Virus record (IMG/VR): IMGVR_UViG_3300010883_000425
Location: 1-25,063 of that record
DNA length: 25,063 nucleotides
Source of the DNA: a virus
Strand: one strand, 5' to 3'
Positions within the stretch are counted from its first letter, which is position 1; each line of letters begins with the position of its first letter. The notes below the pieces were generated by a model. The model was not told the DNA's origin and ran no database searches. It saw nothing but the letters and a program-made list of their open reading frames with translations. Made by a program: the position numbers and the translations under genes. Below are positions 2,783 to 25,056 of this stretch, one piece after another.

Positions 2783-3014
2783 ATTTGGAATAGTTAAACA
2801 TGAAGTTATTACTGATCCATGTTTATCTGTATCTGCAAAAGCACTTTATAGTGTATTATGTTGTTATGCAAACAAAGACAGAATATGTTGGCCTTCTATT
2901 AGCACATTAGCAGATGACCTTGACTCAAGCCAATCTAGTATAAAAAGATGGTTAAAAGAGTTAAAACATTACAATTACATAAAAAGAATTGGTAGAAAGC
3001 TAACCATAAGATAG
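2760..3014 (+). CDS. Winged-helix HTH protein (HTH_36-like), 84 aa
   Basis: Residues 10-78 match the helix-turn-helix family common in phage and plasmid replication or regulatory proteins (Pfam HTH_36): SAKALYSVLCCYANKD, then CWPSISTLADDLDSSQSSIKRWLKELKHYNYIKRIGRK. The CWPS motif starts the HTH, and IKRWLKEL is the recognition helix. It probably binds DNA as a regulator of its region. The protein stops only six residues after the HTH domain (LTIR), shorter than most relatives, so it may be C-terminally trimmed. The start at 2760 gives the usual short lead-in (RFGIVKHEVI) before the domain. Confidence 0.75.
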   Translation: MYILKKNRFGIVKHEVITDPCLSVSAKALYSVLCCYANKDRICWPSISTLADDLDSSQSSIKRWLKELKHYNYIKRIGRKLTIR

Positions 3015-3038
3015 AACGTTAGCTATATATATGCAATT

Positions 3039-3046
3039 TAATTTTG
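3039..3046 (+). promoter_or_regulatory. Candidate -7 box (TAATTTTG) in the 3015-3124 gap
   Basis: TAATTTTG fits TAnnTTTG in the 110-nt gap before the gene at 3125. No convincing TTG lies at the expected upstream distance, so this is weak. The rest of the gap shows no gene. Confidence 0.25.
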
Positions 3047-3124
3047 TGCACAGATCATAATTCATTTAATTATTCTGATTCAGAAGAAGTTATATCGTTA
3101 TCTTTACAATAATAAAATAAGATA

Positions 3125-3394
3125 ATGATAATACAACTTCCTAATGGTCGTATAATAGAATGTTCAGTTGAACAATACTTATCACTAAATGATGATGAGT
3201 ATAGAGACTTGAATGGTCTTAGCACAGCTTATACCAAGGAAGTGGGTGATCCATTTTACAATAGTATTTACAAAACTAAATCTATGCCTGAGTTCATTGA
3301 AACAGAAATGATAGAAGAGCATGAACCGGCTTTAGATGAGTTTACTGCTGTTGAAAAATTAGATGATCCGTATTTCCATTCAGATGATATCTAA
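3125..3394 (+). CDS. Acidic hypothetical phage protein, 89 aa
   Basis: The N terminus IIQLPNGRIIECSVEQYLSL followed by NDDEYRDLNG reads like a small conserved protein of Bacteroidota phages that I recall without a known function. The first 30 residues would form a beta hairpin (IIQLPNGRIIECS) and a helix. The C-terminal half is strongly acidic (EEHEPALDEF, HSDDI). There are no catalytic motifs or membrane segments. It follows the HTH protein after a gap and precedes an acid-tailed protein. Confidence 0.7.
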   Translation: MIIQLPNGRIIECSVEQYLSLNDDEYRDLNGLSTAYTKEVGDPFYNSIYKTKSMPEFIETEMIEEHEPALDEFTAVEKLDDPYFHSDDI

Positions 3395-3437
3395 AATCAT
3401 CAATTAATTATTTTATTCACCTTTAAATTTTAAAAAA

Positions 3438-3998
3438 ATGCAAAATCAAGTAAACATCCAAGCGGATGACATGGGTAATGTTGTACGTTTATCAAAAAAC
3501 AATTCAGATTATGGCTTTATCAGATTAACACAAGATAGAGTAATTATTAACAGTAACAATTTTGTTAATAATAAGCAAGTTAGCACATTAATTGCTGGAA
3601 AAGTAGAAGATCTTCAAGCGTTAAACCTTAAAGCAAAATCAACAATGCCAGGAAAGATAATTGTTAAGGAACAGTTATTACCTTTTAATGAAGTTAACCC
3701 GGACATTACTTTAAAATATGCAGGTACAACAGGTATCATATGCTGCGTAGATGGACAACCTATTTATAGGAAAACATTTTTTGTATCAGATACTGATGCT
3801 CAAGATATATTACTTGCACATACTAATGGAGATGACATTAAAATTGCAAATGGTCAATTTACAGAAACCAAAGTTAATAAAACCGTTCAACCAGCAGAAG
3901 CATTTGGTTTAGAAAAGGAAAAAACTGAGGACATTGAAGTAGTTAGTGAAGAAGTTGTAGAAGAAGTTGTAGAAGAAGCTGAAACTTTTGAGCTATAA
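3438..3998 (+). CDS. Acid-tailed hypothetical protein, possibly nucleic-acid binding, 186 aa
   Basis: The body (1-140) is predicted to be beta rich, with segments such as YGFIRLTQDRVIINSNNFV and ITLKYAGTTGIICCVDGQP. The last 35 residues form a highly acidic low-complexity tail made of VVEE repeats and ending AETFEL. A beta body plus an acidic tail ending in a hydrophobic pair is the general plan of phage single-stranded DNA-binding proteins, but no OB-fold signature can be proven by eye, and a better SSB candidate lies at 12070. The tail is encoded by a 12-bp tandem repeat (3948-3971). A compact double hairpin overlaps the stop codon. Confidence 0.65.
   Translation: MQNQVNIQADDMGNVVRLSKNNSDYGFIRLTQDRVIINSNNFVNNKQVSTLIAGKVEDLQALNLKAKSTMPGKIIVKEQLLPFNEVNPDITLKYAGTTGIICCVDGQPIYRKTFFVSDTDAQDILLAHTNGDDIKIANGQFTETKVNKTVQPAEAFGLEKEKTEDIEVVSEEVVEEVVEEAETFEL
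3948..3971 (+). repeat. Two tandem 12-bp repeats (GAAGAAGTTGTA)
   Basis: Two exact copies (3948-3959, 3960-3971) followed by a third diverged copy encode the EEVV repeats of the acidic tail. Slippage here would change tail length in units of four residues. Confidence 0.7.
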
Positions 3999-4036
3999 CA
4001 AAATTGTTATAAGGCTGGGGTATAACAACCTCAGCC
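3994..4036 (+). terminator. Double hairpin, likely terminator or 3' processing structure
   Basis: TATAACAA (3994-4001) pairs with TTGTTATA (4004-4011), overlapping the stop codon. GGCTGGGG (4013-4020) pairs with CCTCAGCC (4029-4036) with one G-U, around the loop TATAACAA (4021-4028). The loop repeats the first arm, so TTGTTATA could pair with either copy. A T run does not follow directly, so termination may be weak. Confidence 0.5.
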
Positions 4037-4061
4037 TAAATAACATATCTTTTATTAATCT

Positions 4062-4078
4062 CTAAAACAACAAGTATG
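4062..4078 (+). repeat. Shared leader, copy 2 (CTAAAACAACAAGTATG)
   Basis: Identical to 25-41, again ending in the start codon. It follows the double hairpin and heads the gene at 4076. TATCTTTT a little upstream (4047-4054) is near the -7 consensus but has T in place of the final G. Confidence 0.6.
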
Positions 4079-4603
4079 CTATCACAAGAACAACTGCAAA
4101 AAATTGAGTTAGGACACAATGAGTCTAAACTTAGTCAACGTGCTGAACGTTATCAATATCTGGGTATATTAGATGAATATCAATTACACCCACCATCAAT
4201 CATTAATTCATTCAAGTATTCAAAATTAAATCCATATCAACACTTTTTATTTAAAAGAGTATTACATGGTCTTAATGTTTACAAACCAGAAGAGGTACAA
4301 AAACTACACTGGGATAAAAGAAGAAGAATATCTAAAGTATGGAAAAGGTCACAAAAAGAACTCAATCATTGGAAACAAACTCTTTGTAATAAAAGAATTA
4401 ATTCTTACCTTAGAAAAACTTTTAAATGCTCTCCATTAGCACTGTATATTGCAAATATACCAGCTGAAGAAACATTAGATGATTATAATAACACTATGAC
4501 TTTCAAAGAGTTAGGTATTACTTATGAAGATGTTATTTTAAAGTTTATGTCTCTTGGTCTATTGCCAAGAAACTTCTTTACTATAAAACCAAATGTCAAT
4601 TAA
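4076..4603 (+). CDS. Basic hypothetical protein, 175 aa
   Basis: No family recognised. The protein is mostly helical and basic, with a dense Lys/Arg/Trp region at about residues 82-120 (LHWDKRRRISKVWKRSQKEL, then WKQTLCNKRIN) that would suit nucleic-acid binding. The C terminus (TMTFKELGITYEDVILKFM) looks like a small helical module. Its last 11 nt overlap the following HNH gene in another frame, suggesting coupled translation of the two. The start is supported by the leader shared with the first gene of the window. Confidence 0.65.
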   Translation: MLSQEQLQKIELGHNESKLSQRAERYQYLGILDEYQLHPPSIINSFKYSKLNPYQHFLFKRVLHGLNVYKPEEVQKLHWDKRRRISKVWKRSQKELNHWKQTLCNKRINSYLRKTFKCSPLALYIANIPAEETLDDYNNTMTFKELGITYEDVILKFMSLGLLPRNFFTIKPNVN

Positions 4604-4865
4604 AAAGTATTCTAACAAAATGGCTAAAACAAATGCTTCTTATGCAAAACTGCGTAAGGAGTACTTGTCTAACCATCCGGTATGTCATGCTAAAATACAT
4701 CAATGTACTATCCGTGCTACTGATGTTCATCATAAACAAGGGCGTGGTATTCATCATTTAAATGTAAATACTTGGCTACCTGTTTGCAGGAACTGTCACA
4801 TGTGGATAGAAGAAAATCCTACTGAGTCATATGAACTTGGTTATTCAACTTTAAGATCTAAATAA
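4593..4865 (+). CDS. HNH endonuclease, 90 aa
   Basis: The zinc-stabilised HNH fold is visible: a first Cys pair (Cys31, Cys38), the core ATDVHHKQGRG (42-52) with catalytic His46 or His47, a HHLNVNTW segment supplying Asn, and a second pair CRNCH (65-69). Small free-standing HNH proteins in phages act as homing-type nucleases, in DNA packaging, or as replication and recombination nicking enzymes. This one lies far from any visible packaging gene, so its role is open. The start at 4593 overlaps the upstream gene by 11 nt; a second in-frame ATG at 4620 would give an 81-residue protein that keeps the whole domain. Confidence 0.85.
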   Translation: MSIKKYSNKMAKTNASYAKLRKEYLSNHPVCHAKIHQCTIRATDVHHKQGRGIHHLNVNTWLPVCRNCHMWIEENPTESYELGYSTLRSK

Positions 4866-4871
4866 AACCTT

Positions 4872-4970
4872 ATGGAAAATAAATTTAATTATGAAAGAGC
4901 ACTTACATGGTTCATAATATTACTAATAACTTGGATATTATGGTCTAGTATAATAAGCGCATTCCTATGA
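4872..4970 (+). CDS. Micro membrane protein, 32 aa
   Basis: This short frame encodes MENKFNYERA followed by one hydrophobic segment (residues 11-32, LTWFIILLITWILWSS...) running to the C terminus. It begins 6 nt after the HNH stop and ends in an ATGA overlap with the helicase start, exactly the packing seen throughout this phage. It should be a single-pass inner-membrane peptide. No family is recognisable at this length. Support is the packing plus the clean membrane segment. Confidence 0.5.
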   Translation: MENKFNYERALTWFIILLITWILWSSIISAFL

Positions 4971-6067
4971 ACAATAGAGAAATAGTACAAAATGATGCAT
5001 TAACCGTTGCATTAGAAAACAAAAGATGTGGTTTAGGTATTTCTATGGGTGTAGGTAAAACAAGAATTGCAATACAACACCTGCAAAAAAACTTTAATCC
5101 ATTTGTACAAGCTTTAGTAGTTATACCAAAACATTCAGTAGCACAGGCGTGGATAGATGAATTAGAAAAGATGAACTTATCAAGTTTAGTTAAACATATA
5201 ACGTTTACTACATATTTATCATTAAAAAAACACAATCCTAATGAGTTTGATTTAGTATATTTAGATGAATGTCATTCTCTTAAATATTCACATGAATTGT
5301 TTTTGGCTAATTTTACCGGTAAGATCTTAGGATTAACTGGTACACCACCAAAGCATATAAAGTCTGAAAAAGGAATGCTTGTTCAAAAGTATTGTCCAAT
5401 CTTATATAGTTTTGACGTAGACAGTGCAGCTGATTCAAATATAATTAATGATTATAAAATAGTAATACATTATTTAGAGCTATCAAAGTTACCTACTTTA
5501 AAAAAGAAAACTAAAGCAGGAGGACATTGGTATACTACAGAGAAGAAAGATTATGACTATGTAACGTCTAGAATAGCTGATGCAATGACTGATAAACAAG
5601 AACAGTTTGGAAGAATAATGCGCATGAGAGCCTTAATGGATTATACAACTAAAGAGCTTTATGTTAAAGGGTTATTAAAAAATACTAATGATAAATGCAT
5701 TGTATTTGCTAATACCATGAAGCAAGCAGATAGAATTTGTAAATATAGTTATCATTCTAAAAACAAAAAATCTGATGAAAACTTAGAACTATTTTCTGAT
5801 GGAAGAATAAATAGTCTTAGTTGTGTATTACAATTAAGTGAAGGTATTTCTATATCAAATCTTAAGCAAGGTATTATAATGCATGCTTATGGTAATGAAA
5901 AGAAAACAGCTCAGAGAATAGGTAGATTACTTAGACTTAGTCCAAGTGAAGAAGCTATATGTCATGTATTGTGTTATAAAGGAACACAAGATGAAAAATG
6001 GGTCAATTCAGCTTTACAAAGTTTTGATTCAAATAAAGTATTTATATTTAATCCACTAAAACAATAA
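4967..6067 (+). CDS. SF2 DNA helicase (SNF2/DEAD-like), 366 aa
   Basis: The superfamily 2 motifs are in order: motif I SMGVGKT (26-32), motif Ia VVIPKHS, motif II DECH (100-103), motif III LTGTP (123-127), a second RecA-like domain with CIVFANT, and motif VI QRIGRLLR near residue 327. It would use ATP to translocate on or remodel DNA during phage replication or recombination. At 366 residues it is compact, close to the two-domain core, and lacks long accessory domains. The Gln-Arg-xx-Gly-Arg motif VI supports an active enzyme. It starts within the ATGA overlap of the 32-aa membrane peptide and is followed after 3 nt by another membrane micro-protein. Confidence 0.88.
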   Translation: MNNREIVQNDALTVALENKRCGLGISMGVGKTRIAIQHLQKNFNPFVQALVVIPKHSVAQAWIDELEKMNLSSLVKHITFTTYLSLKKHNPNEFDLVYLDECHSLKYSHELFLANFTGKILGLTGTPPKHIKSEKGMLVQKYCPILYSFDVDSAADSNIINDYKIVIHYLELSKLPTLKKKTKAGGHWYTTEKKDYDYVTSRIADAMTDKQEQFGRIMRMRALMDYTTKELYVKGLLKNTNDKCIVFANTMKQADRICKYSYHSKNKKSDENLELFSDGRINSLSCVLQLSEGISISNLKQGIIMHAYGNEKKTAQRIGRLLRLSPSEEAICHVLCYKGTQDEKWVNSALQSFDSNKVFIFNPLKQ

Positions 6068-14027: not shown

Positions 14028-14454
14028 AAAATGGTTTATACCAGGATCAGTACCAAGTAGTAAGAATGGCCGTAGATGGACAGGTAAATACTTTATTGCT
14101 AGCAAAACAGTAATGAATTATAGAAAAAAAGCTAAAGATTATTATGCAAAATATCATGATGAATTTAAGGCTGAACTAGCTAAACATGATTTACCAGCTA
14201 AAATATCTTTTGAATTTATAAGAGGTACACGTCATAAATTTGATTATATTAATCCTGCACAGACCGTGCAAGATGACATGGTTAAAGCAGGTTGGATTGA
14301 AGATGATAATGCAGAATTTATTCTACCTGTCTTTGAACAATATACATATGATAAATCTAATCCAGGAGTATGGATTGAAATACTAGAAGATGAAAATAAT
14401 ATCAAGTCAGGAATTATTACAGATAGTACAGATGATCAAAAGCAAAAACAATGA
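14017..14454 (+). CDS. RusA-like Holliday junction resolvase, 145 aa
   Basis: The N-terminal PGSVPSSKNGRRW motif (9-21) and the catalytic region FDYINPAQTVQDDMVKAGWI with EDDN (75-98) match the RusA family. The acidic residues Asp76, Asp86/87 and Asp96/97 stand in the positions of the RusA metal site (DxDN...D...DD), although the DIDN part reads DYIN. It would cut branched DNA made during recombination, before packaging. The ATG at 14017 is used; a TTG at 14008 three codons earlier is a poorer start. Confidence 0.82.
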   Translation: MKNKKWFIPGSVPSSKNGRRWTGKYFIASKTVMNYRKKAKDYYAKYHDEFKAELAKHDLPAKISFEFIRGTRHKFDYINPAQTVQDDMVKAGWIEDDNAEFILPVFEQYTYDKSNPGVWIEILEDENNIKSGIITDSTDDQKQKQ

Positions 14455-14686
14455 AGATGTTGAATTAGCTCTGACACTTTACAAAAATTTAGATATAGCA
14501 GATAGAAATATTACTAATAGATTAATTGCAAAAGCATTAGTCTTTGATAAAAGGGCAACCTTTTATAGTAGTATTGATACTACATATACCTATAAAGAAT
14601 TATTGACATGTAACTTAACTACTCTTATAAAAAATTCTAAATCAGCAACAAATTTATATTTATCTATTTTAAAAGAAATAACATGA
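14432..14686 (+). CDS. Small helical hypothetical protein, 84 aa
   Basis: I prefer the ATG at 14432 (MIKSKNNEDVELALTLYKNL) over the one at 14390, which would extend the overlap with the RusA-like gene to 65 nt and adds a low-complexity lead-in. The protein is all helical with a DVELALTLYKNLDIADRN repeat-like segment of unknown role. It ends in an ATGA overlap with the vWA gene, so it is coupled to it and could be an accessory subunit of that cassette; no family is recognised. Confidence 0.6.
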   Translation: MIKSKNNEDVELALTLYKNLDIADRNITNRLIAKALVFDKRATFYSSIDTTYTYKELLTCNLTTLIKNSKSATNLYLSILKEIT

Positions 14687-15840
14687 TAGTACAAGAAAAG
14701 GTTGCTAGGACAACCAAAAGTTTAATATTTACAGAGCCCTTTTACGGGCTCTTTTTAATTGGTATCAATAAAGAATACACTGAACGTATACCTACAGCAG
14801 GTGTAAGTAAAAATGGTATTGGTATGCAGTTGACAATAAACCCTGAGTTCTTTATGAACTTAAGTGAGGACCATAGATATGGATTAATAAAACATGAGCT
14901 ATTGCATATTGCATTTGGTCATTTATTATTAAGAGATCTGTATTCTGATCATAAACTATTTAATATAGCCGCTGATCTAGAAATAAACCAGTACATACTG
15001 GAAAGTAAATTACCTGAAGGTGGTTTATTATTATCAAGTTTTCCTGAATTAAATCTTCCTGTTAAAGCAGGTACTAAAAAGTACTATGAATTATTAGAAG
15101 AAGCACAAGGAAGTGGGGAATGCCCATCATTAGATAGCTTAATGGACCAGATGAAAGGTGATAGCCCATATTGTCATAGCACATGGAATGATTTTGAAGA
15201 GTTACCTGAAGCGGATAAAAAGTTAGTTCAAAAACAAATTGATCATCAACTTAAAGAAGCTACAGAACAAACTGAAAAGAAATGTGGTGATATACCAGGA
15301 GAACTTTCTGATTTAATAAGTAGACTTATGCATATTGATCCACCTAAGTTTAATTGGAGAGCTTACTTAAGAAGATTTGCAGGTAATTCTAGTGTTGTAT
15401 ATACTAAAAAACTAAGACGTAAATATAATAAACGTTATGCTGCAAGTCCAGGATTAAAGATTAAATTTAAGAATCATATACTTGTTGGTGTTGACACAAG
15501 CGGATCTGTAAATAATGATGAGCTTAAAGAGTTTTTTAGTGAATTAACTCATATGCATAAAACAGGTCATAAAATTACAGTTGCACAGTGTGATACACAA
15601 CTTAGAACAGTAGAAGAATTTAAACCTAAGAAAGATTGGGAAATACATGGTCGTGGTGGGACAAGTTTCCAACCAGTTATTGATCACTACAATGAAAAAG
15701 GTATTTATACCGCATTGATATATTTAACAGATGGTGAAGCATATGCTCCAGAAAAATGTCCTAATAATGCCTTATGGGTACTTAGTAGTATATCTGATGT
15801 AAATGATGATTTACCAGGACAAGTAATTAAATTAAATTAA
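14683..15840 (+). CDS. Metallopeptidase-like / vWA domain protein (DUF2201-like), 385 aa
   Basis: The N-terminal domain holds a zinc peptidase-type motif HELLHIAFGH (71-80) and NIAADLEIN (94-102), likely supplying a further metal ligand. A charged linker follows. The C-terminal von Willebrand A domain has the MIDAS residues DTSGS (271-275), GGTSF (Thr327) and LTDGE (Asp350). The pair matches DUF2201/VWA proteins that act with MoxR AAA+ ATPases, and a MoxR-type gene follows 8 nt later. Such pairs usually remodel protein complexes; the target here is unknown. The ATG is conserved-looking because the segment PFYGLFLIG, typical of the family start, follows it, yet a perfect terminator-like hairpin lies in those codons. 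Confidence 0.85.
   Translation: MIVQEKVARTTKSLIFTEPFYGLFLIGINKEYTERIPTAGVSKNGIGMQLTINPEFFMNLSEDHRYGLIKHELLHIAFGHLLLRDLYSDHKLFNIAADLEINQYILESKLPEGGLLLSSFPELNLPVKAGTKKYYELLEEAQGSGECPSLDSLMDQMKGDSPYCHSTWNDFEELPEADKKLVQKQIDHQLKEATEQTEKKCGDIPGELSDLISRLMHIDPPKFNWRAYLRRFAGNSSVVYTKKLRRKYNKRYAASPGLKIKFKNHILVGVDTSGSVNNDELKEFFSELTHMHKTGHKITVAQCDTQLRTVEEFKPKKDWEIHGRGGTSFQPVIDHYNEKGIYTALIYLTDGEAYAPEKCPNNALWVLSSISDVNDDLPGQVIKLN
14733..14756 (+). terminator. Intrinsic terminator inside the vWA gene
   Basis: AGAGCCC (14733-14739) pairs with GGGCTCT (14746-14752), with the loop TTTTAC and TTTTT (14752-14756) following. This is a textbook intrinsic terminator 50 nt into the coding region, over codons for EPFYGLF. 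It would attenuate the downstream vWA/MoxR/paralog genes unless translation or antitermination prevents it. Confidence 0.7.
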
Positions 15841-15848
15841 AAATAAAA

Positions 15849-17126
15849 ATGGCACAAGTAAATTTAAATGTAACGGAATTAAAAGGATTTGTAAATCATA
15901 TAATTACAAATAACAGGTACTTACAATCCAATGGAAAAAGTCCAGTATCAGTTGAAGTAGTAGGTGAATCAGGTATTGGTAAAACATCTACTATTGTAGA
16001 ATTAGCACAAGATAATAATCTAAAATTTGTTAAATTAAACTTAGCTCAGATAGAAGAGTTAGGTGACCTAGTGGGTTTTCCTGTACGTCAATTTCAGATG
16101 TATAAAGAAAAAATAGTTAACGTCCCAACTAAGAAATTAGATGACTTGTCATATACTGCAGCACAAAGATCTGCCGCTTCAGCAGATTTAGCTAACATGC
16201 CTGCAACAATAACTAAAAAAGTTGGTATGTGGGTTGATGAACTTGCTGTACAGGAATATCTTAAAACAGGATACAAGATGACAGGGAAGAATAGAATGTC
16301 TTACTGTGCACCAGAATGGATTGCAGATGCTAAAGAAGGTGGTATACTATTATTAGATGATTGGAATAGAGCTGATACAAGGTTTATTCAAGCAGTTATG
16401 GAATTAATAGATAGACAAACTTATATTTCATGGTCCCTTCCTAAAGATTGGCATATTATATTAACAGCTAACCCGGATAATGGTGACTATATGGTTAACA
16501 GTGTAGATAGTGCACAGAAGACTAGATATGTAACTGCAAATCTTAAATTTGATGTTAACGTATGGGCTGAGTGGGCGGAAAGTGCAAGTATAGATACAAG
16601 ATGTATTAACTTTTTATTATTACATCCTGAGCTAGTAACACAAGAAACTAATGCAAGATCTATTACAACATTCTTTAATGCAATATCTAGTTTTGATAGC
16701 TTTGAAGATAACTTATCATTAATTCAAATGATTGGTGAAGGTTCTGTAGGTGATACATTTGCATCTATGTTTACTACTTTTATTAATAATAAACTGGACA
16801 AATTAGTAACACCAAAAGATTTATTGACTCATGAAAATGAATCATATATTCTTGGTGAACTTAGAAGTTGTGTAGGGCAAGATGATACTTACCGTGCAGA
16901 TATTGCTGCAACGTTAGCTACAAGACTTGGTAATTTTTCAGTTGTATATTCTAAAGAAAGTTCAGTGACTCAGAAAATTACTGATAGATTAATATCTTTA
17001 TGTACTAAAGATTATTTTACTAATGATCTTAAGTATTTAATTGTACGTACTATCTTTAATGGTAATAAACAGAAGTTTAACAAAATGATGATGAATCCAG
17101 CAATCATTAAAATGACAATGAAATAA
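15849..17126 (+). CDS. MoxR-type AAA+ ATPase, 425 aa
   Basis: AAA+ signatures are in order: Walker A GESGIGKT (39-46), Walker B ILLLDDWNRAD (166-176), with DD in place of the usual DE, sensor 1 LTANPD (205-210, Asn208) and a nearby Arg (QKTR, 223-226) in the arginine-finger region. The short helical insertions and ANPD motif fit the MoxR/CobS group. It would form a ring that uses ATP to remodel a target delivered by the vWA partner encoded just upstream. The C-terminal 150 residues are helical and unassigned. Two paralogous unknown proteins follow directly (2 nt gap), so the four genes form one operon. Confidence 0.88.
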   Translation: MAQVNLNVTELKGFVNHIITNNRYLQSNGKSPVSVEVVGESGIGKTSTIVELAQDNNLKFVKLNLAQIEELGDLVGFPVRQFQMYKEKIVNVPTKKLDDLSYTAAQRSAASADLANMPATITKKVGMWVDELAVQEYLKTGYKMTGKNRMSYCAPEWIADAKEGGILLLDDWNRADTRFIQAVMELIDRQTYISWSLPKDWHIILTANPDNGDYMVNSVDSAQKTRYVTANLKFDVNVWAEWAESASIDTRCINFLLLHPELVTQETNARSITTFFNAISSFDSFEDNLSLIQMIGEGSVGDTFASMFTTFINNKLDKLVTPKDLLTHENESYILGELRSCVGQDDTYRADIAATLATRLGNFSVVYSKESSVTQKITDRLISLCTKDYFTNDLKYLIVRTIFNGNKQKFNKMMMNPAIIKMTMK

Positions 17127-17127
17127 A

Positions 17128-18174
17128 ATGGCAAATAAATCAGTATATCAAGATTTTGATGCTGATGCTTTAACTTACTTTGGATTAGAGAAGGACACTA
17201 TTTATGGTGTCCTTTCTAGTTCCGGGGTAGTTGATAAAGTATTATGTACTCAAGATCAAACAACATATGAAAAACTACAAACTATATTAACAGTACCAAC
17301 AGAAGATGGTATTACTTTTAGAACCAAAAAGAAAGCTTTTATATTACCTAAGTGTAATGTATCTCAAGATAGATTAAAAGCAGCTCTTAGAGAGCACAGT
17401 ATAACTGTAACAAATGATTATACATTGGCAGATTTAATTATAGGACATGAAGATATATCAACTTACCGTTTAGAAAATGCAGAGAATATACCTTCTACTA
17501 TAATGATGAATAAGATATGGAACTATGAAACTACAAAAGGTAGAAACACTGCAACACATCCTAAAGAAATAGCAATAGTTAATTCAGGCCTTGAAGTTTT
17601 ATTAACTCCTAAGCTTACAGAAAGTGTAAGGTATTATGATTTGGATATTGAAAATAGTCTTTATGATGAGTGGATGTTAACAGGGATGGCTATAAACTTA
17701 GCATATCTTATTGATACAACTAGTGTAAGTGTAATTGATCCTGAAACAGTATTATATAGTTCTGCTAATAAAACGGTTCTTGATGAACAACTTCTTAGTG
17801 ATTTACAAGTACAATTAAATTCTCATGGTGATGATAAAGCTTTGGCTCTTAAAATTATACCTACTATAGATTATAAACAAAACTATCATTTACTGTGGCA
17901 GTTTGCGCAAAATTGTAGTAATATAACTTATGCTAACAATAGAGATAAAGACTTGCAATACTGGTTAAGTGAATCTAACTTTGTATCTTTTGAAAGAAAA
18001 AGTGCTCAGAGTATGATATTATGGTTAGAAGAAAATGGAAACTTATGCAAAACTACCTTTAGATATCTAGAGCCAATGGTAAGAAAAGAAATATCAATTA
18101 ATAATAGGGACCTTTATACATTTAAAGTAGCTGTTAAAAAAGAATATCAAAAATATATGAAAAATGATTTATAA
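17128..18174 (+). CDS. Unknown protein of the MoxR-vWA cassette, paralog A, 348 aa
   Basis: No family is recognised. It is clearly a distant paralog of the next gene. The block AFILPKCNVSQDRLKAALRE...ADLIIG (70-106) lines up with VYRFPKLNLPRQKFELLKEK...AEILIV there. A downstream segment around DDKALALKIIPTIDYKQNYH also lines up with ETRSLCVEMIANCNVNES. The 70-106 block has a beta-alpha-beta-beta pattern that could be a BRCT-like fold (speculative). C-terminal parts are helical. Its place after a MoxR-type ATPase suggests a substrate or adaptor of that machine. The start ATG follows the MoxR stop by 1 nt; a perfect hairpin lies in codons 22-29. Confidence 0.75.
   Translation: MANKSVYQDFDADALTYFGLEKDTIYGVLSSSGVVDKVLCTQDQTTYEKLQTILTVPTEDGITFRTKKKAFILPKCNVSQDRLKAALREHSITVTNDYTLADLIIGHEDISTYRLENAENIPSTIMMNKIWNYETTKGRNTATHPKEIAIVNSGLEVLLTPKLTESVRYYDLDIENSLYDEWMLTGMAINLAYLIDTTSVSVIDPETVLYSSANKTVLDEQLLSDLQVQLNSHGDDKALALKIIPTIDYKQNYHLLWQFAQNCSNITYANNRDKDLQYWLSESNFVSFERKSAQSMILWLEENGNLCKTTFRYLEPMVRKEISINNRDLYTFKVAVKKEYQKYMKNDL
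17191..17214 (+). repeat. Perfect 8-bp hairpin inside the paralog A gene
   Basis: AAGGACAC (17191-17198) pairs with GTGTCCTT (17207-17214) around an 8-nt loop, over codons for KDTIYGVL. TTTCTAGTT follows, too broken for a strong terminator. It mirrors the vWA-gene hairpin in position, 63 nt after the start codon. Confidence 0.5.
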
Positions 18175-19345
18175 AATAACATTACCCCAATTAGTAGATA
18201 ATAAAAAAAAATATAATGCAAGTGATATAGAAATAGATCACGTAGGATATTTTATTGGAACAACATTGTCATATAGATATGATGGTCTTGATGCAAATGA
18301 TTTAAAAGAGTTTGGCTTAGTATTGGAAGATAAAAAAACTATAAATCTACAAGATAAAACTGTATATAGATTTCCTAAGTTAAATCTTCCTAGACAAAAA
18401 TTTGAATTGTTAAAAGAAAAATATAACTGTAAAGTAATAAGAAATAAGGAAAAAGCTGAGATTTTAATTGTTTCTCCAAAGTATGTAAATAGTTTAGTAA
18501 AGACAAATTATCACAGGTCACGTGATCTTAATCAATATTTTAAACTTTTAACTTCATTGAAACAGTCAGATCTACTAAGTGAATGTGCTGTAAATAAATT
18601 TAATGATTTCTTTCAGGATCCTGAAAAGTTTATACCTGGCTCAAGAATTGATGTTTGTTTTTCATATGCTGGTTATCATTCAACTAAGGGTGTAATAGAA
18701 GCAAAGAGAGAAGATATAGTACATAAATGGAAAGAAGATATAAATAAAAACCTTCTACCATCTGCAAATGATTTAAGAGATGTTGTAATAGAGTCAGAAT
18801 CTGATTTTGAACAATGGTTATTTTTACAAGATAACTCACGTACAATAATATTAGATGAAGATGTTATGAATCTTACTAATGAAGGATTAGCAATTATACC
18901 AAATGATGAGTATAATACTATACATTCTATGCTTACTAGTACTGATCAAGAAACAAGAAGTTTGTGTGTAGAAATGATAGCTAACTGCAATGTTAATGAA
19001 TCTTTTGATGTAGTTGCTACATTATTTTATTGGCATTATGATTGGTTTAAAAATTCAAATAATTGGAATACTGTGAATGTTAAAGCACTTCGTCAAGCAT
19101 TAAAAGAGTTTGGAGGTGTTAATCATGAAAACCATAGTATATACCAATACAATCAGTTTATATCAAAAATGATTAATAGAGGTAAATTGACTAAGTTTGT
19201 ATTTGAGAATACAAGAAAAAGATTATATACTAAATTAATAAATCAAATGGTAGGGCCTGGTTCTGAAATGTGGACTGTTAAAGAAATAGATCTTACACTT
19301 AGACCTGAAGAATTTAATAAAATAAAATTTAATGAAACAGAATAA
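18164..19345 (+). CDS. Unknown protein of the MoxR-vWA cassette, paralog B, 393 aa
   Basis: Second member of the tandem paralog pair. The conserved block lies at residues 68-103 (VYRFPKLNLPRQKFELLKEK, then AEILIVS), with a further alignable segment near TDQETRSLCVEMIANCNVNE. It has about 45 residues more than its neighbour, mainly in the middle. The C terminus is helical and basic (NTRKRLYTKLINQM). It overlaps paralog A by 11 nt and the next nuclease gene by 14 nt, so it is translated with both. No catalytic motif is visible. Divergence between the two copies suggests they play different roles in one complex, possibly as a heterodimer. Confidence 0.75.
   Translation: MIYKITLPQLVDNKKKYNASDIEIDHVGYFIGTTLSYRYDGLDANDLKEFGLVLEDKKTINLQDKTVYRFPKLNLPRQKFELLKEKYNCKVIRNKEKAEILIVSPKYVNSLVKTNYHRSRDLNQYFKLLTSLKQSDLLSECAVNKFNDFFQDPEKFIPGSRIDVCFSYAGYHSTKGVIEAKREDIVHKWKEDINKNLLPSANDLRDVVIESESDFEQWLFLQDNSRTIILDEDVMNLTNEGLAIIPNDEYNTIHSMLTSTDQETRSLCVEMIANCNVNESFDVVATLFYWHYDWFKNSNNWNTVNVKALRQALKEFGGVNHENHSIYQYNQFISKMINRGKLTKFVFENTRKRLYTKLINQMVGPGSEMWTVKEIDLTLRPEEFNKIKFNETE

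Positions 19346-23421: not shown

Positions 23422-25056
<1,635 letters not shown>

Follow-up and report, generated by a model that had tools for sequence, protein, structure and literature searches.

A MoxR ATPase, a metallopeptidase-vWA protein and two paralogous partners form a fixed four-gene block in the replication module of an uncultured crAss-like phage lineage

Results

The window analysed here is the whole 25-kb virus record IMGVR_UViG_3300010883_000425 (positions 1 to 25,063), and its plus strand carries a block of four adjacent genes in the order vWA, MoxR, P4 and P5. They encode a metallopeptidase-vWA protein, a MoxR-type AAA+ ATPase and two paralogous partner proteins, P4 and P5, and all four open reading frames (ORFs) were confirmed. 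The source phage is Crassvirales-like, with a genome of about 115 kb, and belongs to an uncultured marine crAss-like lineage whose host is probably a member of Bacteroidota. All coordinates given below refer to the plus strand of the window.

The four genes are found together throughout the lineage. A redundant set of 188 loci anchored on P4/P5 contains the four genes in the same order. To avoid a circular search, loci were also anchored on the DNA polymerase A gene (PolA); 79 such loci were analysed, and the four genes are present in order in 70/70 of those that spanned the region, where the loci are partly non-independent because certain phage species are represented by several contigs. This indicates that the four-gene set is a fixed part of the lineage, and the co-occurrence on which an earlier reading of this DNA from its letters alone (the sequence-only reading) depended is thus found outside the window.

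The metallopeptidase-vWA protein (385 amino acids (aa), 14683..15840) matches DUF2201_N (putative metallopeptidase, 2.6e-16) and DUF2201 (VWA-like, 5.8e-16) in Pfam, as well as PHROG 1314, and its vWA domain in Pfam extends to residue 384 of 385. The zinc-site motif HExxHxxxxH, which reads HELLHIAFGH at residues 71-80 (14893..14922), is present in 82/82 distinct loci, and H71, E72, H75 and H80 are invariant also in an alignment with five distant phages. The metal ion-dependent adhesion site (MIDAS) motif DTSGS lies at residues 271-275 (15493..15507). Across the 82 distinct loci, DxSxS is found in 82/82, of which 78 have the DTSGS form, and GRGGT..TDG is found in 82/82; the MIDAS residues D271, S273, S275, T327 and D350 are invariant even in comparison with the five distant phages. 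Many GenBank phage records, and PHROG 1314, label this protein as an HNH endonuclease. This label was rejected because the motif is HExxH and not HNH, and the Pfam domains are those of a metallopeptidase and a vWA protein.

The MoxR-type ATPase (425 aa, 15849..17126) matches PHROG 1297 (1.4e-33), and a profile search matched it to AAA+ proteins, with midasin as the best. Both the Walker A motif GESGIGKT (15963..15986) and the Walker B motif LLLDDWNRA (16347..16373) are identical in 82/82 loci. An Asp occupies the position of the usual catalytic Glu of MoxR proteins in Walker B, which is a constant peculiarity of the lineage. Because the active-site motifs are intact and nearly invariant, the motor and the peptidase look functional as far as the sequences can tell. 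The sequence-only reading had named an HExxH-bearing metallopeptidase-vWA protein and a MoxR AAA+ ATPase, which agrees with the Pfam and PHROG matches and the intact motifs.

In one locus (L180, positions 2943-5263), an insert of about 1.1 kb interrupts the MoxR gene immediately past LLLDDWNRA and contains a 235-aa ORF, which by its sequence looks like a GIY-YIG homing endonuclease. The insert is probably an intron, placed where the MoxR gene is most conserved; an Rfam search of this locus returned no intron at the gathering threshold.

Structure and paralogy of P4 and P5

P4 (348 aa, 17128..18174) and P5 (393 aa, 18164..19345), the latter a paralog of P4 and the fastest-evolving gene of the block, are the new part of the block and belong to no described family. 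Neither protein has a significant match in Pfam or PHROGs, and searches against isolates, PDB sequences, PHROGs, NCBIfam and PADLOC gave no usable relative. Structure prediction of the single proteins, which had been suggested along with the sequence-only reading, was run for both and gave confident AlphaFold2 models, with a predicted local distance difference test (pLDDT) score of 91.0 and a predicted template modelling (pTM) score of 0.81 for P4, and a pLDDT of 88.8 for P5.

Each protein is predicted with good confidence to have two domains, first a BRCT-like one that a variable insertion interrupts and then a helical one of ARM/HEAT-like type. For P5, rows 1-43 of the VIA-align result are all BRCT or BRCT-containing chains that cover residues 61-240, with Z up to 6.1, and a PARP BRCT (2le0) is matched by Foldseek at a probability of 0.97. 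From the fold search and the column entropy, the predicted domain of P5 divides into a conserved b1-a1-b2-b3 core (residues 61-104, 18344..18475), a variable insertion (residues 105-204, 18476..18775; entropy 2.3-3.2 bits) and a second half (residues 205-240, 18776..18883), which closes the matched range; the predicted helical domain (residues 245-365, 18896..19258) is conserved. For P4, BRCT chains are among the top structure matches of residues 62-212 (17311..17763), where the predicted insertion also lies, with MCPH1 BRCT (3szm) at Z 6.8 and PARP1 BRCT (2cok) at a Foldseek probability of 0.93. ARM-type helical rows were also returned for P4; its helical domain (residues 216-325, 17773..18102) resembles importin-alpha, FHOD1 and similar proteins at Z 5-6, which is of low specificity. 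Naming a family from the helical-domain matches (importin-alpha, Hgh1, AP-3) was rejected as too generic. The curated Pfam score for BRCT (PF00533) was not reached, the best E-value being 0.024, in 7/35 P4 members, and no P5 member gave such a match. Because the fold scores are moderate and this value was obtained in only some P4 members, the wording is kept at BRCT-like.

P4 and P5 are full-length paralogs. BLASTP finds nothing between them, and an hhalign comparison is colinear and marginal, with 2/100 full-length column shuffles reaching the observed score. At the level of domains, 49 columns of the two BRCT-like cores align without a gap; the mean pairwise score of the core lies above all shuffles (z 7.4, 0/300 column shuffles), as does that of the helices that begin the C-terminal domain (z 5.5, 0/300), where the two segments were picked after viewing the models and this selection is uncorrected in the shuffles. 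The order of strands and helices is concordant between the independent models of P4 and P5. The paralogy is concluded from the domain-level shuffles, the gap-free core alignment and the matching order of secondary structure. Together with the negative database searches, this upholds the claim of the sequence-only reading that two tandem paralogous partners of no described family are present.

A search of the BFVD with P5 as the query returned four near full-length fold matches from uncultured phages (E 8e-11 to 2e-6, probability 1.00), namely A0A6J5LXR8, A0A8S5QMV2 of the crAss-like phage ctYsL76, and A0A8S5TKB2 and A0A8S5TL70, both of Podoviridae ctz6O13. These proteins share the P5 fold nearly end to end but only 12-14% identity with P5, at which distant P4/P5 members would escape sequence profiles. 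The presence of two of the matches in one podovirus indicates that paired proteins of the P4/P5 kind exist beyond the lineage.

Evolution of the block

The four genes differ strongly in their rate of change. The median pairwise identity is 87% for MoxR, 82% for vWA, 65% for P4 and 40% for P5, and the ratio of nonsynonymous to synonymous differences per site (pN/pS) in close pairs is 0.04, 0.10, 0.23 and 0.34, respectively. Within P5, pN/pS is highest in residues 1-60 (0.73), followed by residues 105-240 (0.44); the helices are at 0.19 and the BRCT-like core is at 0.12.

P4 and P5 are also replaced by recombination between otherwise near-identical phages. Between loci L006 and L043, identity is 96-100% over almost the whole flanking region but 68-89% per 150-nt bin in P4, and the synonymous divergence (dS) of P4 is 0.69 against 0.02-0.11 for the surrounding genes (MoxR 0.07, P5 0.02). 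Between loci L028 and L038, replacement covers the first 250 residues of P5, while its helical part is still 95-99% identical. The least identical gene is P4 or P5 in 8/15 independent clusters, in which about 14 genes were compared. This allele replacement argues for a target under diversifying pressure.

Position and boundaries of the block

The block sits between the RusA and RecE genes in a module that includes DnaB, Sak4, primase and PolA. Upstream (5') are the genes for DnaB, Sak4, primase and RusA, and downstream (3') are a RecE-like PD-(D/E)XK nuclease, two small genes, DNA polymerase A and GroEL; the setting among recombination genes described by the sequence-only reading is therefore correct, as RusA and RecE flank the block.

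The MoxR gene starts 8 nt past the vWA stop, P4 starts one base past MoxR, and P4 and P5 overlap by 11 nt. The downstream RecE gene also overlaps P5, by 14 nt, and the whole module is tightly packed, so that tight packing alone is no mark of a cassette. Translational linkage had been proposed for the four genes; the close spacing and overlap are real, but since the whole module is packed alike, translational coupling was dropped as evidence for a cassette. The start of the block had been placed at 14432, which is an internal ATG of a 98-aa ORF (14390..14686, from the ORF list) that overlaps the start of vWA. This ORF is accessory, with complete homologs in 30/82 distinct loci, and the earlier boundary does not hold.

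In 8/82 loci, 350-430 nt separate vWA and MoxR. In six of these (L004, L072, L073, L110, L177 and L198), the space holds an ORF of 118-133 aa (MGRYYxGDI...), most with a CSFTAEL end, which is possibly an optional fifth component; the other two (L080 and L135) have shorter ORFs there. Insertions of 0.8-2.1 kb lie between P5 and RecE in L393 (5866-7926) and L386 (7090-7935), a junction at which most other members have an overlap or no gap.

Comparison with known systems

The pair of MoxR ATPase and metallopeptidase-vWA protein is not new. It has been described as a chaperone-cochaperone pair of jumbo phages, with a proposed role in virion assembly (Iyer et al. 2021; PMC7824862), and N4-like phages and others carry it as well. 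A tblastn search with the vWA protein matched 360 isolate records, and a MoxR gene is nearby in all five that were inspected. The block shares with this phage pair (PHROGs 1297 and 1314; N4 gp24/gp25-like) both proteins and their adjacency, the fusion of an N-terminal metallopeptidase to the vWA domain, and the intact HExxH and MIDAS motifs. It differs in that the pair lies here in a replication block, that its Walker B reads DD and not DE, and that P4/P5 were undetected in the five such phages examined; the third genes beside the motor pair in other phages show no similarity to P4/P5. The proposal of a candidate new system thus stands for the partners and not for the motor pair.

P4/P5 were not found in cr50_1, phi14:2, crAss001, cr125_1, cr273_1, cr108_1, Dulem 42 and Bajarodcaudo 1, eight crAss-like relatives chosen by a related terminase or portal, nor in phi17:2, Lbo-JY46 and DAC16, where the last four records of this search were queried with P5 and vWA only. 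The replication module of crAss-like cr50_1 is similar to that of the window and likewise runs from primase through Holliday-junction resolvase to exonuclease, but it lacks the four genes.

Bacterial vWA-MoxR-associated protein (VMAP) and iSTAND systems are MoxR-vWA ternary conflict systems with a fast-evolving third component (PMC7159879), and they resemble the block in combining MoxR, vWA and a fast-evolving partner with a vWA-linked peptidase. However, their gene order is VMAP, MoxR, vWA, whereas it is vWA, MoxR, P4, P5 in all spanning loci here; the vWA protein of the block is without a variable C-terminal effector domain; the partner is duplicated and predicted to be BRCT-like and helical; and, whereas the third component and vWA both evolve fast in VMAP systems, here P4/P5 do so and vWA is conserved. 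None of 72 P4/P5 members has a significant Pfam match, to VMAP-C or otherwise, and the absence of VMAP-C from the fold-search matches, which are BRCT and helical, carries no proof. An nSTAND_NTPase4 hit in 1/37 P5 members at 0.025 is at chance level, and the fold searches listed BRCT and helical matches. Given the differences in gene order, in effectors and in the kind of partner, the block is not filed as a VMAP or iSTAND system, in line with the view of the sequence-only reading that no named ternary system fits. RavA-ViaA and NorQ-NorD (PMC10585395, PMC13036017) also combine a MoxR motor with a vWA cofactor, under a model in which force is transmitted through the vWA protein; the block differs from them in the zincin domain on the vWA protein, in the phage genome and in the two extra partners.

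Proposed mechanism and alternatives

We propose, with a probability of about 0.5, that the four genes encode one core protein-remodelling machine in which P4 and P5 are paired, exchangeable adaptors that pick a variable client, probably one of the host or one bound to DNA. What we infer, from the genes, motifs, predicted folds, co-occurrence and evolutionary pattern given above, is that the proteins form a complex, how they share the work and what the client is. The MoxR ring would hydrolyse ATP and pull on the vWA protein, by analogy with NorQ-NorD and other MoxR-vWA pairs; the vWA MIDAS would bind an acidic residue of the adaptor or the client; and the zincin domain may cut whatever is presented. 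A constant motor combined with two exchanged paralogous partners suggests that P4 and P5, probably as a heteromer, act as adaptors choosing the client. The helical ends are constant and the fronts vary, most plainly in P5, a division that suggests docking by the rear part and recognition by the front part: the conserved helical domains would dock on the constant motor, and the BRCT-like domains with their variable insertions would contact the client. The client would most likely be a protein located on phage or host DNA, given the fixed place of the block in a replication and recombination module and the BRCT-like fold of the partners, and the exchange of P4/P5 alleles suggests that it probably differs between hosts or strains. 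A more specific version, in which this is a viral MoxR-vWA machine with a swappable heteromeric BRCT-ARM adaptor whose insert sets the client and whose alleles are exchanged to track hosts or rivals, is offered tentatively, as a possibility.

Several observations weigh against this proposal. The same motor pair occurs without P4/P5 detectable by profiles in the five pair-carrying phages. The BRCT assignments come from predicted structures and score moderately (Z 6-7; Foldseek E of at least 0.28, to single BRCT chains), Pfam and PDB sequence searches gave BRCT a best E of 0.024, and the BRCT sequence signatures, a Gly turn before b2 and a Trp in the last helix, are not kept; the last BRCT helix has no Trp in either P4 or P5. 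A pN/pS above 1, as expected of positive selection proper, was found in no segment, and the fast change may reflect relaxed constraint. RusA, o194, primase and RecE also recombine, less often than P4/P5, so that replacement is enriched in P4/P5 without being exclusive to them.

The pattern that supports variable clients also bears on other explanations. The fastest divergence and the exchange of alleles are both seen in P4/P5, as expected of parts that face a variable partner, and in the MoxR-vWA ternary systems of bacteria the third component is fast-evolving too (PMC7159879). Such a pattern would suit host takeover or counter-defence, in which P4/P5 recognise a variable host defence or replication protein that the MoxR-vWA peptidase unfolds or cuts. 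We consider this rather unlikely: the block is never absent (70/70), unlike typical anti-defence genes; it is embedded in the replication module instead of an accessory region; and PADLOC gave no match to known defence-system components that would hint at a target. A phage-borne ternary conflict system, in which P4/P5 would act as sensors and which would work against superinfection or competing phages, is favoured by the resemblance of MoxR, a vWA-peptidase and a fast-evolving partner to the scheme in PMC7159879 and PMC12839542. It has little probability, however, as the gene order differs, the vWA protein ends with its vWA domain and carries no variable effector, vWA is not fast-evolving, and P4/P5 are not predicted to be VMAP or STAND proteins.

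The published proposal for the same motor pair (PMC7824862) would make the block a virion assembly or maturation chaperone with a peptidase, as proposed for the jumbo-phage pair and Acidianus two-tailed virus. For the present block this is improbable, since the block belongs to the replication module and is encoded on the other strand from terminase and portal, the predicted fold of the partners is typical of DNA-repair scaffolds, and allele replacement of P4/P5 is not readily explained by late structural clients.

If the proposed swappable-adaptor machine is true, it would introduce a new class of adaptor and be a phage counterpart of the MoxR-vWA conflict systems of bacteria. Such motor pairs are widespread among phages, and here the pair is tied, in every sampled locus, to two paralogous partners. 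A nameable predicted fold of these partners and the division into constant and exchanged segments make the question of the client testable, and the block shows that a core part of a replication module can hold an allele system driven by recombination.

Genome context and additional observations

Among the matches listed, the identity of PolA to isolates is at most 34%, with no close isolate. In a 114-kb relative (G003), the relatives of terminase and portal are crAss-like phages and Flavobacterium and Cellulophaga phages, the best portal match being a Leptolyngbya phage, and the four genes lie on the strand opposite to terminase and portal. The same relative also encodes a 748-aa protein (L226, 16858-19104) with fn3 and a weak VWA match, located among structural genes and distant from the four-gene block. 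The whole block is present in a 114.7-kb contig (L172, WLWP01000004.1) in a Pseudomonadales metagenome-assembled genome bin, which is most likely a misbinned phage genome. The GroEL gene of the window (23425-25056, PHROG 5725) lies directly 3' of PolA, a position at which only some relatives carry GroEL, and its product is up to about 60% identical to chaperonins in records of phage collections.

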